A DNA stretch of 64,000 nucleotides from Celeribacter naphthalenivorans (lineage in GTDB: Bacteria; Pseudomonadota; Alphaproteobacteria; Rhodobacterales; Rhodobacteraceae): assembly GCF_020524585.1 (NCBI RefSeq), contig NZ_JAIVLK010000001.1, positions 372,001 to 436,000 on the forward strand. The letters are read 5' to 3'. The notes beneath the pieces are model-generated. The model saw nothing but the letters and a program-made list of their open reading frames with translations. It did no database searches and had not been told where the DNA came from. Position 1 is the stretch's first letter. The number at the start of each line of letters is the position of its first letter. Positions 25,444-36,150 of this stretch are shown piece by piece. A program made the translations under genes and the position numbers.

Positions 25444-26820
25444 TCACGCGGCGTGGGAGCCCAGGGTCACCTGATTGCGCCCCTCGGCCTTGGCGGCATA
25501 AAGCGCGCGGTCGGCGATCTCCAAAAGCGTGTCGATGTCATGAGATTCCGCGCCGCCCATGGCCAGACCGATGGAGGCGGAGACCGTCACCGGCGTGCCG
25601 TCAGGGGCAACGGCGGCAGGTCGGGCACAGATCGTGGCGCGCAGGCGTTCCGCCACAGCGCGGGCTTCCATCAGCGTCGTCATCGGCATGCAGACCAAAA
25701 ACTCCTCGCCGCCGAACCGCGCCAGCAAATCCATGCTGCGCAAGCTGTCGCTTAAGCGTTTCGCCACATCGATCAGCACCGCGTCGCCGGTGGCGTGACC
25801 ATAGGTGTCGTTGACCGTTTTGAACTTGTCGATGTCCAGAAGCATCACCGCGAAATGTTGGTGATTGTCGCGCGCGTCGCGGGCGAGTTTCTCCAGATGC
25901 GGCATGGCGTAATGGCGATTGTAGAGCCCGGTCAGCTTGTCGCGGGTGGCCAGACGCAGGCCTTCGTCGAGCGTCAATTTCAACAGATCGGCCTCTTTCT
26001 TGCGCCGCATCTGGGTGCGCAGGCGCAGGGCCATTTCTTCCGGGTCGGCGCCGCGGGTGATCAGATCGTTGGCCCCGAGATCGAGCGCCATGAGGGCCTC
26101 GCGCCGATCCTGCGGACCATGCACGACGACGATCCCGGCATTCCGCGTCGTCTCACGCGCGCGCAGATCGGAGATCAGCCGCATGCCCTCGCTCGACCCA
26201 CCGGCCTGAGCGGAAATCACGTAAAGATCGGCCACCTTGCCGTGGTAAATCGATTCCAACAGATGATCGGCCCGTTCGATGGCAATCTCGTCATGCACCA
26301 TGCCCTTTAGCCCCGCACGCCAGGTCATAGCCTCCTCGGAGGTGGAGCCGATGAGGGCGATTTTTCCGGGGGTGGCGTAGTGGCTCGCGGCCTCGGAAAA
26401 GCCCAGGGCATGCGCCGTTTCATTGCGGCGGCGCAGCTCTTCGGAGGTGGCGGAGGCGCGCATGAGGGCACGCACCCGCGCGGTCAGGGTCAATTCATCG
26501 AGCGGTTTCGACAGGAACTCATCGGCGCCAGCTTTGAGTGCGGCGATCTTCGCCTCAGGCTTTTGCGCGGGCGTGATGATCGCAACGGGAATATGCGCGG
26601 TGAGCGGATCGGCCTTGAGGGTCGCACAGGCGTCATAGCCGCTCATGTCGCCGAGATCGCTGTCAAGGATGATGAGGTTCGGCCGCGTTTCTCGCGCGAG
26701 CGTGAGCGCCTCCTGCCCGGTCGGAGCCTGTGTCACATCGTAGAAGGCCGAAGACAGTTTGACCTTCAGGATGATCCGATTGGTCGGCACATTGTCCGCG
26801 ATGAGAATCCTGCCTGCCAT
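25444..26820 (-). CDS. pleD: PleD-like diguanylate cyclase with two receiver domains
   Basis: 458 residues: receiver 1 (1-~120), a divergent receiver 2 (~150-280), and a C-terminal GGDEF domain with active-site GGEEF and upstream RSMD inhibitory site. Receiver 1 retains D9, phospho-acceptor D53 (IILDSDLGDMSG) and the TP/KP signature, but the second acidic pocket residue (D10 in Caulobacter PleD) is N10. Predicted to make c-di-GMP when activated. The ATG at 26820 places all residues at PleD numbering. It is divergent from the DUF3572 gene. Confidence in the domain call is high; control by phosphorylation is less certain because of N10. Confidence 0.9.
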   Translation of the reverse strand: MAGRILIADNVPTNRIILKVKLSSAFYDVTQAPTGQEALTLARETRPNLIILDSDLGDMSGYDACATLKADPLTAHIPVAIITPAQKPEAKIAALKAGADEFLSKPLDELTLTARVRALMRASATSEELRRRNETAHALGFSEAASHYATPGKIALIGSTSEEAMTWRAGLKGMVHDEIAIERADHLLESIYHGKVADLYVISAQAGGSSEGMRLISDLRARETTRNAGIVVVHGPQDRREALMALDLGANDLITRGADPEEMALRLRTQMRRKKEADLLKLTLDEGLRLATRDKLTGLYNRHYAMPHLEKLARDARDNHQHFAVMLLDIDKFKTVNDTYGHATGDAVLIDVAKRLSDSLRSMDLLARFGGEEFLVCMPMTTLMEARAVAERLRATICARPAAVAPDGTPVTVSASIGLAMGGAESHDIDTLLEIADRALYAAKAEGRNQVTLGSHAA

Positions 26821-27015
26821 ATCTTTTGCGCGTCCTCTGTAACGGGTCTGCCGGGCGCTTTTGGCCTCGGGGGCGGGGGACGCAGCCTGTGTCTGCGATG
26901 CCCGTCTTGCTGAACCACTGGGTCTCTTTTGTTGCGGTCTGTTGTATTTCTGGTGTTGCCTATGGTTAAGAATGTCGGTGACAAAGGTTAAGAAACCGTT
27001 TCCAAACACCCGAGG

Positions 27016-27313: not shown

Positions 27314-28024
27314 ATGATGCGCAAGATAGAGGCGATCCTGTTCGACAAAGACGGCACGCTGATGGATTTCCAAAGCAGTTGGGGGCCCTGGGGCGCGGCC
27401 ATGATCACACGCCGCTGTGGGGCCGACCGGCAAAAACAGGTGGCACTCGCTGAGGCGCTTGGCATTGATCTTGCCGCAAAGCGGTTCTTGCCGCAAAGCG
27501 CCGTGATCGCGGGCACGCCCGACGAGGTTGTCACTCTGTTACAGCCGTTCTTCCCGGCCAACAGCGCGGCGGAGATCACCGGCTGGCTGGACCCCGACGC
27601 GGAGAATTTCGCGCCTGTGCCTGTGCCGGGGGTCTACGACTGTTGCGTTGCGTTACGCCAGCAGGGTCTGGGCATGGCCGTCGTGACAAATGATTTCGAA
27701 GCGGCGGCGCGGGATCATCTGTCTCAGATGGGATTGGGCGCGCTCTTTGATGCGGTCGTCGGATATGACAGCGGCTTTGGCGGCAAACCCGCGCCGGGAC
27801 CCTGTCTGGGGGCTGCGGAGCGGCTAGGGGTGGCGCCTGAGGCCTGTGTGATGGTGGGGGACAGCCTGCACGATCTGGAGGCGGCGCAGCGTGCCGGGAT
27901 GATCCCGGTCGCGGTGCTCACGGGTGTTGCGTCAGCCGACGAGCTCTCGGATCATGCTGCGGTGGTTTTGGACAGTGTCGCCGATCTGCCCGCGTGGCTG
28001 TCCGGCGGTAACGTCGGGGGCTGA
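27314..28024 (+). CDS. HAD-superfamily phosphatase (phosphoglycolate-phosphatase-like)
   Basis: 236 residues. HAD motif I AILFDKDGTLMDF (nucleophile Asp and acid/base Asp), motif II VVTND, motif III lysine in GGKPAPGP, and motif IV VGDSLHDLEAA. The variable cap lies between motifs I and II, as in phosphoglycolate phosphatases, but substrate range is broad in this family. It follows the DUF3572 gene closely. No signal peptide. Confidence 0.85.
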   Translation: MMRKIEAILFDKDGTLMDFQSSWGPWGAAMITRRCGADRQKQVALAEALGIDLAAKRFLPQSAVIAGTPDEVVTLLQPFFPANSAAEITGWLDPDAENFAPVPVPGVYDCCVALRQQGLGMAVVTNDFEAAARDHLSQMGLGALFDAVVGYDSGFGGKPAPGPCLGAAERLGVAPEACVMVGDSLHDLEAAQRAGMIPVAVLTGVASADELSDHAAVVLDSVADLPAWLSGGNVGG

Positions 28025-28164
28025 AAACGCAGCTTTCCGGGCCGGTTTTCGAGAGAATGAGAACAATTTTAGGAGTTTATCCAAGCTGCTCAGACGGCAA
28101 TTGGTAATTTCTTAAGAGTGGCCCGATACACCTCCCGCATGTGAATGTGGGAGGCATGGCGACC

Positions 28165-28764
28165 ATGCATGGTATGATTAACCGGGCGATCCAGTGCTTT
28201 ATGCGCGACACCTATGGTGCGGACACCTGGGAAAAAGTCGCGGAACAGGCGGATCTCGGGTTCGACAATTTCGAGGCGATGCTCAGCTATCCGGACCAGA
28301 TCACTCTGGATGTTCTGGGCCGTGCCGCGCGGCAATTGCACAAACCGGTGGAAACCTTCCTCGAAGACCTCGGCACCTATCTTGTCTCTCATCCAAATGT
28401 TGAGGCGATCCGGCGCCTCCTGCGTTTCGGTGGCGAAAATTTCACAGAATTTCTATTTTCTCTCAATGAATTGGAAGGTCGCGCGCAACTGGCGCTGCCG
28501 GATCTCGAGGTGCCGACACTTAAGGTCGAATATGCCGAAGACGGGCGATTCCGGCTCAGTTGTTCCAGTTCGATGCCGGGATTTGGCTATGCCATGGTGG
28601 GCGTGATGCGCGCGATGGCGGATGATTACGGCGCCTTGGTGTTTCTCGAACATCAGGGCTGGATGGATTCGGGCGAGGAAATCATCACCATCAACCTGTT
28701 GGAAGCGGCCTATACCGAAGGGCGCAGTTTCGAACTCTCCGAGCGGATTGGAGGTGAGCTATGA
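28165..28764 (+). CDS. H-NOX-like sensor protein lacking the usual heme residues
   Basis: 199 residues with the H-NOX (heme NO/oxygen-binding) opening MHGMINRAIQ and the C-terminal GYAMVGVMRAMADDYG strand-helix. In canonical H-NOX the proximal His (about 102) lies in an LDxxH motif and the YxSxR heme-propionate motif begins 29 residues later. Ungapped alignment puts E104 (SLNELEGR) at the His position and C133-S-S-S-M137 at YxSxR, so only the Ser is kept. Heme binding is therefore doubtful. The ATG at 28165 has GGGAGG at ideal spacing. It overlaps the HNOBA-GGDEF gene by four bases, so the pair should signal together. Confidence 0.8.
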   Translation: MHGMINRAIQCFMRDTYGADTWEKVAEQADLGFDNFEAMLSYPDQITLDVLGRAARQLHKPVETFLEDLGTYLVSHPNVEAIRRLLRFGGENFTEFLFSLNELEGRAQLALPDLEVPTLKVEYAEDGRFRLSCSSSMPGFGYAMVGVMRAMADDYGALVFLEHQGWMDSGEEIITINLLEAAYTEGRSFELSERIGGEL

Positions 28765-29798
28765 GTGTCGTCAGGCCTGTCACATTCGATGCGGCGCCTT
28801 TCCTGTCCTTCATGCCGATGAGCCTGATCTTCGCGGATTCGGGCGTGATCCTGTCGATCGGGTCGACCCTGGCGAAACTGCGTCCGGCTGAGGAGTTGAT
28901 TGGCAAAGATGTGACGGAGGTCTTCTCCGTGCGCGACAACGGGCGCGGGCAGGGTAACTGTCCGGTTCCTTTGGACACGAAACTCTATCTGAAATTCCGC
29001 ACGGGGGTGACCACGCGCCTCAAAGGTATGGCGGCTTCGATTCCTGGCACTGGCGTCAACATTCTGAACCTGTCGTTTGGCATTTCCATCGTCGATGCTG
29101 TGGCGGATTATCGTCTCACCGCCGGGGATTTCGCGCATACCGATCTGGCCATTGAGATGCTCTATCTGGTCGAAGCCAAATCTGCGGTGATGGAAGAAAC
29201 CAAACAGTTGAACGCACGTCTGCAGGGCGCCAAGGTGGCCGCCGAAGAACAAGCGTTCACCGACACTTTGACGGGGCTCAAAAATCGCCGCGCCATGGAT
29301 CATGTGCTCAAGCGGATGCTGCGGACCCGTGTGCCCTTTGCCCTCATGCATCTTGATCTGGATTACTTCAAATCCGTCAACGATACGTTGGGGCATGCTG
29401 CCGGCGATACCGTGCTTCAGGAAGTGGCCCGGATACTCTTGGACGAAACCCGGTCGGATGATTTGGTTGCCCGCGTGGGCGGCGATGAATTCATCCTGAT
29501 CTATAACCGTTTCACGGATCACACCCGGCTGCTGCAAACCGCGAAACGCATCATTTCGCGTCTCGAAGGGCCGGTGCCTTATCTGGACACTTTCTGCAAA
29601 ATTTCCGGCTCCATCGGCATCACCACCACCGACTATTACAGAGCGCCGACGGCCCATGGCATGATCCATGACGCAGATCTCGCGCTTTATAGTTCGAAAT
29701 ACGAAGGCCGCGCGCAAGCCACCCTGTTTGATCCGGCCGTGCATCACGACACCCATATCGAGGCTGCTCCACAGGCCACATCGCAAGACAAAAGATAA
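28761..29798 (+). CDS. HNOBA-GGDEF diguanylate cyclase partner of the H-NOX-like protein
   Basis: 345 residues. Residues about 12-135 form a PAS-like HNOBA domain (FLSFMPMSLIFADSGVIL, ending TAGDFAHTDLAIEMLY), followed by a coiled coil (EAKSAVMEETKQLNARLQ) and a GGDEF domain with DTLTGLKNRRAMD, catalytic GGDEF and inhibitory RSDD, so it should be an active, product-inhibited c-di-GMP synthase. The four-base ATGA overlap and the HNOBA domain mark it as partner of the H-NOX-like protein. The ligand it responds to is unclear because the partner seems unable to bind heme normally. Confidence 0.88.
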   Translation: MSVVRPVTFDAAPFLSFMPMSLIFADSGVILSIGSTLAKLRPAEELIGKDVTEVFSVRDNGRGQGNCPVPLDTKLYLKFRTGVTTRLKGMAASIPGTGVNILNLSFGISIVDAVADYRLTAGDFAHTDLAIEMLYLVEAKSAVMEETKQLNARLQGAKVAAEEQAFTDTLTGLKNRRAMDHVLKRMLRTRVPFALMHLDLDYFKSVNDTLGHAAGDTVLQEVARILLDETRSDDLVARVGGDEFILIYNRFTDHTRLLQTAKRIISRLEGPVPYLDTFCKISGSIGITTTDYYRAPTAHGMIHDADLALYSSKYEGRAQATLFDPAVHHDTHIEAAPQATSQDKR

Positions 29799-29848: not shown

Positions 29849-29984
29849 CAAAATCCCTCTTGCGCCCCCCGCCGGGATTTCATAGATACGCGCTCACACC
29901 AAGCGCGGTCCGTTCGTCTATCGGTTAGGACGCCAGGTTTTCAACCTGGAAAGAGGGGTTCGATTCCCCTACGGACTGCCACTT
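29849..29984 (+). repeat. Left arm of a 136-base inverted repeat containing tRNA-Glu
   Basis: This segment is the reverse complement of 36015-36150 with one mismatch (29855). It covers about 58 bases upstream of the tRNA, presumably promoter/leader, the tRNA-Glu itself, and three bases beyond CCA. The two arms lie about 6 kb apart in opposite orientation. Confidence 0.95.
29907..29981 (+). tRNA. tRNA-Glu (anticodon TTC)
   Basis: Cloverleaf: acceptor stem GGTCCGT with ACGGACT, D arm GTCTATCGGTTAGGAC, anticodon stem-loop CCAGGTTTTCAACCTGG with TTC anticodon, variable AAAG, T arm GGGGTTCGATTCCCC, and encoded CCA end. It is duplicated in inverted orientation at 36018-36092. Confidence 0.96.
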
Positions 29985-36014: not shown

Positions 36015-36150
36015 AAGTGGCAGTCCGTAGGGGAATCGAACCCCTCTTTCCAGGTTGAAAACCTGGCGTCCTAACCGATAGACGAACGGACCGCGCTTGG
36101 TGTGAGCGCGTATCTATGAAATCCCGGCGGGGGGCGCAAGAGGTATTTTG
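36015..36150 (-). repeat. Right arm of the 136-base inverted repeat containing tRNA-Glu
   Basis: Reverse complement of 29849-29984 with one mismatch (36144). It contains a second tRNA-Glu and its upstream leader. The repeat ends abruptly at both sides, consistent with a duplication in inverted orientation. Confidence 0.95.
36018..36092 (-). tRNA. tRNA-Glu (anticodon TTC), second copy
   Basis: Base-for-base identical to the tRNA-Glu at 29907-29981, on the opposite strand, including the encoded CCA. The upstream region is also the same, so expression should be equal. Confidence 0.96.

Follow-up and report, generated by a model that had tools for sequence, protein, structure and literature searches.

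A glutamate-bearing H-NOX-fold protein that lacks the canonical heme ligand motifs and is encoded with a diguanylate cyclase in Celeribacter naphthalenivorans

The hnoX-like gene and its cyclase partner

The window analysed here, a stretch of 64,000 nucleotides of the Celeribacter naphthalenivorans genome with 95-98% protein identity to Celeribacter sp. PS-C1 and HF31, carries an hnoX-like gene that runs from an ATG to a TGA codon and encodes a protein of 199 amino acids (Table 1). An alternative longer start, the GTG at 28141, has by eye no GGAGG-like box. The product matches the Pfam HNOB profile with 90.3 bits, above the cut-off of 25.5; no second HNOB match was found in the genome. Sequences of solved H-NOX structures also match the protein, Nostoc Alr2278 ranking first, while a search of a phage collection returned no match and leaves a phage origin unsupported.

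Table 1. Features of the hnoX locus in window coordinates
Feature	Position	Strand	Basis
HAD-family hydrolase upstream of hnoX	27314..28024	+	Pfam
CtrA-like full site TTGG-N7-TTAA (TTGG-TAATTTC-TTAA)	28101..28115	+	sequence pattern
Shine-Dalgarno GGAGG for ATG 28165	28150..28154	+	sequence
hnoX-like gene, 199 aa H-NOX-fold protein without canonical heme ligand motifs	28165..28764	+	HNOB match, AF2 model
Glu104 codon at proximal-His position	28474..28476	+	Alr2278 alignment, 129-row alignment
CSSSM (C133-S-S135-S-M137) replacing YxSxR	28561..28575	+	Alr2278 alignment
Diguanylate cyclase, HNOBA-like N-terminus	28761..29798	+	GGDEF 132.3 bits; HNOBA 20.4 bits, sub-cut-off
RxxD inhibitory site (RSDD)	29451..29462	+	sequence
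GGDEF active-site motif	29478..29492	+	sequence

The ATG of the cyclase gene overlaps the hnoX stop codon as ATGA, and its GGDEF and RxxD motifs are both intact in the translated sequence. The preliminary description had hnoX coupled to an HNOBA-GGDEF protein; the coupling and the cyclase stand, but the HNOBA domain falls short of the Pfam cut-off (20.4 against 23.4 bits). This cut-off is passed by the partner enzymes of five of nine relatives, in matches confined to roughly the first 80 of the 216 model positions. A GGDEF gene lies downstream of 133 of the 137 ORFs scoring above 100 bits among the matches listed; of the other four, two stand at contig ends and the rest, L003 and L006, are rows of the canonical type. 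In the near-canonical relative L002, which has His and YxSxR, the partner is an HNOBA-GGDEF-EAL protein (L002:1983-3485), so the cyclase of the clade to which the window protein belongs may have lost an EAL domain.

Upstream of hnoX, a homologue of the HAD-family hydrolase was found within the fetched stretch at 50 of 128 orthologous loci. Beyond it lies a second cyclase on the reverse strand (25444-27009), with receiver domain(s) and GGDEF and PleD-like by its make-up. Two tRNA-Glu(TTC) genes, at 29907-29981 (+) and 36018-36092 (-), stand 6 kb apart in inverted orientation, each within a copy of the same 129-bp sequence, which also takes in some 50 bp upstream.

Ligand positions, fold and selection in the orthologous group

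The ligand positions were read from a phmmer alignment to Nostoc Alr2278, whose sole gap lies well upstream of them. Alr2278 binds heme and, unlike the window protein, has the proximal His and YxSxR. Its segment NLDNLHARVGL aligns with SLNELEGRAQL, which places Glu104 at the proximal-His position, and HYQSTR aligns with SCSSSM, so that only the Ser of YxSxR is kept; 29 residues separate the two sites in both proteins. The substitutions and the conserved spacing given in the preliminary description are thus borne out, and a His was looked for at the proximal position of the alignment but not found. The gene occurs in all 20 genomes surveyed for the genus and, because position 104 is Glu in 17 of them (Val, Lys and Gln in one each), Glu104 is no sequencing accident.

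An AlphaFold2 model of the window protein, built from a 23-row alignment, reached a pLDDT of 84.8. Foldseek returned Nostoc H-NOX entries first (TM 0.78-0.80, 0.79 for Alr2278, PDB 2o09; Z 20.4-21.3), predicting that the H-NOX fold is intact, in line with the shared HNOB profile. Compared with human sGC, the model scored somewhat higher against NO-activated (Z 21.9, 21.8 and 21.3) than against inactive structures (20.6 and 20.1). The His-bearing Thioclava control L090 displayed the same offset (20.5, 20.4 and 19.8 against 19.3 and 18.7), so the model lends no support to an activated state and this comparison was rejected as evidence for one.

HNOB was detected in 296 of the 394 family genomes searched (393 genera), and the loci sample was taken from these matches listed best first, the lower-scoring matches of the positive genomes lying outside it. 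The fetched loci fall into two kinds, a canonical one (39 rows, His in 38) and that of the window, whose H-NOX/cyclase operon occurs in about 100 family genera among the matches listed. The one canonical row without His, L176 of genome G086, has Gln at this position (ELQAEV). The 129 distinct orthologues of the window kind were counted after removal of L001 (the window), the duplicates L049, L077, L101 and L113, and L098 (in-frame stop), L071 (filler) and L165 (no match to our profile). Among the matches listed, position 104 is Pro in 82 of these rows, His in 16, Glu in 12, Gln in 7, Arg in 4, Asn and Ser in 2 each, and Val, Thr, Lys and Tyr in 1 each; two Rhodobacter capsulatus strains (L093 and L094) carry Gln. 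His is therefore lost in 113 of the 129 aligned orthologues and a complete YxSxR is found in none of them, again among the matches listed. Removing the 13 rows of the window's own genus leaves His in 16 of 116. In a class-wide profile survey (alignment A1), 10 of 385 genomes matched at E 1e-10, namely four members of the clade, the window included and all of the same family, and six others with His and YxSxR.

A tree was built without the ligand columns, with L002, L003, L006 and five canonical rows as outgroups, the 34 other canonical rows staying outside it. It joins the 129 rows in one clade (SH-aLRT 99), although only 17 of the 134 inner branches of the whole tree are well supported. At least 14 changes between His and not-His were counted on this quick tree, and a single loss of His is rejected: forcing the 113 His-less rows together gave p-AU 0.0145, in a test run after the tree had been seen and with long branches present. 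Since His and YxSxR are present in the closest relatives detected beyond the family (L184 and L186-L189), His is probably the ancestral state at position 104. The outgroups likewise make losses likelier than gains, which the change count alone cannot separate.

Selection on the protein is strong. In the six of nine comparisons with Celeribacter and Pacificibacter relatives that allowed a dS estimate, dN/dS was 0.03-0.16 (median about 0.05), and dN of hnoX was lower than that of the partner cyclase in all nine. Ten residues (Glu67, Asp68, Arg83, Arg84, Arg87, Arg106, Arg149, Asp153, Asp154 and Tyr155) are present in 96-100% of the 129 rows and in 94-100% of the His-bearing ones. Seven of them (Glu67, Asp68, Arg83, Arg106, Arg149, Asp154 and Tyr155) are missing in three near-canonical rows, in which Arg87 occurs in two and Arg84 and Asp153 in one each. 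Gly70 and Gly146, found in 100% of the 129 rows, are candidates for the hinge glycines whose conservation marks the published group 5 described below. Given this selection on fold, operon and fixed residues, the protein is probably kept for a role that involves its cyclase partner rather than for ligating heme through its former residues.

Two further positions vary with the proximal His. Trp135 occurs in 8 of 16 His-bearing against 4 of 113 His-less rows (p 3e-6) and Ser8 in 15 of 16 against 32 of 113 (p 6e-7), these p values being the best of 547 tests and uncorrected for kinship; a kinship-corrected test of position 135 against His had only two well-supported independent pairs, too few for significance. 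The preference would fit a pocket kept working only alongside His. In the His-bearing loci (L097 of D. shibae and 15 others), the Ser position of YxSxR carries Trp in 8 of 16 or His in 4 of 16, a possible clade-specific heme contact judging from the alignment.

The clade corresponds to a group already in print. Starting from the P. denitrificans H-NOX, the similarity network of Lee-Lopez and Yukl (2022) yielded a very large fifth cluster, "group 5", in which less than 10% of members have the proximal His, most have Pro and no Cys is conserved, and the authors raise the question of how such proteins sense anything (PMC8738867). The window protein is 41% identical to the P. denitrificans H-NOX (L177, a long branch) and falls with it in the 129-row clade; the 16 His (12%) and 82 Pro found among the matches listed agree in kind with group 5, as do the cyclase partner and the lack of a conserved Cys, the best columns being Cys133 (54%) and Cys11 (39%). 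By this identity and our own tree, the window protein is a new, Glu-bearing member of group 5. It differs from the majority by Glu in place of Pro and by CSSSM, and the section on group 5 in PMC8738867 names neither Glu nor a mechanism. The preliminary description had seen in this gene an unusual repurposing of the fold, which does not hold, since loss of His is the rule in a group that the literature already covers (PMC8738867, PMC5588039).

A CtrA-like site upstream of hnoX

The motif upstream of hnoX recurs at the orthologous loci. A weight matrix detected it in 70 of 129 upstream regions, against a shuffle mean of 6.4 and 10 on the reverse strand, and a held-out motif scan in 29 of 58 against 2.9. 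In the 116 upstream regions outside the genus, TT-N9-TTAA was found in 55 (shuffle mean 2.2) and TTNG-N7-TTAA in 36 (0.6 in shuffles). A scan of spacings over the same regions gave 19 for TT-N8-TTAA, 10 for the spacing one longer than the main one, and 3 and 4 for those two off. The strict form TTAA-N7-TTAA occurs in 1 of 129 upstream regions, the enriched form being the degenerate TTNG/TTNN-N7-TTAA.

The full CtrA site is given as TTAA-N7-TTAA, with a 6-bp gap also working in R. sphaeroides (PMC6180460), and the D. shibae site is quoted as TTAAC-N5-GTTAAC (PMC7232146). The main spacing of the CtrA-like upstream motif is that of the full site. In D. shibae and P. inhibens, both hnox and its dgc are reported to be responsive to the CtrA phosphorelay (PMC7232146, PMC11974857). 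Since His-bearing rows carry the weight-matrix motif too (7 of 16, against 63 of 113 His-less rows), the site does not set the His-less members apart. Many relatives have a TAG or similar triplet about 11 nt after the TTAA box, perhaps part of a -10 element; the window counterpart lies after 28115.

Proposed role and competing readings

Since the protein has lost His and YxSxR but retains its fold, its operon and the marks of purifying selection, a ligand-free or differently liganded regulator of the cyclase, as the preliminary description had suggested, is the natural reading. We give about an even chance to a more specific version, in which the window protein descends from an NO-sensing H-NOX, works independently of heme and is dedicated to its cyclase partner, probably as a brake, and set by expression instead of NO. 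The sequence itself supplies its starting points: loss of the ligand motifs, selection that maintains the fold, the operon and a set of residues, and a CtrA-like site ahead of the gene. During NO activation of H-NOX the proximal His is displaced and rotates out with helix alpha-F (PMC7108781). Because activation amounts to breaking the Fe-His bond, a protein without this bond would start in the activated state; the NO switch would be gone, and the window protein may by default adopt a conformation that regulates, and probably inhibits, the cyclase. Control would then come, in place of gas binding, from how much of the coupled pair the CtrA phosphorelay allows to be made. Against this last step, the site is a sequence match and the neighbouring spacing TT-N8-TTAA is enriched as well (19/116). 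Applied to the whole family, the proposal becomes more tentative, and we think it somewhat improbable that repeated loss of the heme site has produced pseudosensors whose NO-like "on" state is the resting one, constitutively restraining c-di-GMP synthesis at a dose set by the CtrA cell-cycle and quorum phosphorelay.

For Celeribacter, we infer inhibition of the cyclase by analogy with two systems. D. shibae (our genome G035, with a 100% match to pDSHI01) encodes an H-NOX (Dshi_2815, L097) of the same clade and operon type, which has lost YxSxR (CIWHR) but keeps the proximal His (LHDRARLAVP). It is described as a heme NO sensor and reported to inhibit Dgc1 when NO-bound (Bedrunka et al. 2018, via PMC7232146 and PMC8846402). 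In P. denitrificans, HnoX (Pden_3719) has also lost His, as its authors note, and its gene overlaps that of the GGDEF protein DgcA (Pden_3720), but it has Pro at the His position and the motif AESHQ. The hnoX mutant is without BapA and partly biofilm-deficient, while the dgcAB mutant overproduces biofilm (PMC5588039), so a His-less member, here with Pro, works in vivo. The same authors propose an inhibition of DgcA by H-NOX that is stimulated by NO; their model, in which NO acts through a His-less H-NOX, stands against our explanation (PMC5588039). A later group reported c-di-GMP to be undetectable in P. denitrificans (PMC12582929).

Some of this evidence would also suit a protein whose emptied pocket holds a different ligand, such as another tetrapyrrole, a lipid or a metabolite, and which remains a conditional sensor controlling the cyclase. 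The predicted fold and the strong selection on hnoX agree with it, as do the frequent Pro across the clade and the near-fixed Glu of the genus. A shared new ligand would nevertheless predict shared new contacts, and none stands out at sites 104, 133, 135 and 137. Of the three sites that formerly contacted the propionates, two vary strongly (positions 137 and 135 rank 3 and 24 of 165 by entropy over the 129 rows, at the most variable end), although the argument is not clean, since 104 and 133 are only middling (ranks 67 and 68). We regard such a ligand as unlikely.

Heme and NO could also still be bound through another residue, for instance His2 or Cys133, in which case the protein would still sense NO, with altered ligation. 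Of the 129 rows, 92% have His2, and the D. shibae member, a reported NO-responsive heme sensor, does without YxSxR (PMC8846402, PMC7232146), so this motif seems dispensable in the clade. But the D. shibae protein retains its proximal His, and His-bearing rows have His2 at a similar frequency (88%). Trp135 and Ser8 are also favoured together with His, which would suit a pocket that stays functional only there, although just two well-supported independent pairs are available; we hold this possibility to be rather improbable. The coupled genes and the residues fixed across the clade would fit a subunit that merely stabilises or folds the cyclase and exerts no regulation, which we judge very unlikely in view of the opposite biofilm phenotypes of the P. 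denitrificans hnoX and dgcAB mutants, unlike those of a pure stabiliser (PMC5588039). An H-NOX fold acting without heme has a precedent in the redox-sensing H-NOX of V. cholerae, which keeps the proximal His (PMC7108781). Its zinc site of three Cys plus His or Gln is absent from the window protein, whose only cysteines are Cys11 and Cys133.

NirK and NnrS are both encoded in the window genome. The cell therefore probably produces and meets NO, and a sensor would be of use to it, a point against the proposed loss of the NO switch. Across the orthologues, the state of position 104 was not linked to these genes: full-length nirK or nirS was found in 9 of 15 His-bearing and 26 of 65 His-less genomes (p 0.25) and NnrS in 10 of 15 and 38 of 65 (p 0.77). 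These counts cover 15 of the 16 His-bearing rows, L090 being left out. Matches above the NCBIfam cut-off were counted as nirK and PF02239 matches at E 1e-90 or better as nirS, a threshold of our own set strictly because weaker PF02239 matches are probably other propeller proteins.

H-NOX proteins are treated as NO sensors. Members of the group are annotated as heme NO-binding in Phaeobacter sp. G2 and Paracoccus ferrooxidans, and those of P. denitrificans and R. capsulatus have been placed in published NO-signalling models; since most aligned members lack the heme ligand, such labels need testing. That His is commonly lost in group 5 was known already (PMC8738867), whereas the Glu-bearing member is new. 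In the open-access literature, as far as its text was available, we found no description of Glu at the proximal-His position, of repeated His loss within the family or of a shared CtrA-like site upstream of hnoX, no placement of the His-bearing D. shibae protein in this clade, and no biochemistry of any His-less member. The D. shibae protein offers a matched partner, from the same clade, for asking how His-less members sense. Another His-keeping hnoX of the window clade, L098 in genome G271, has its reading frame interrupted by a TAA stop.
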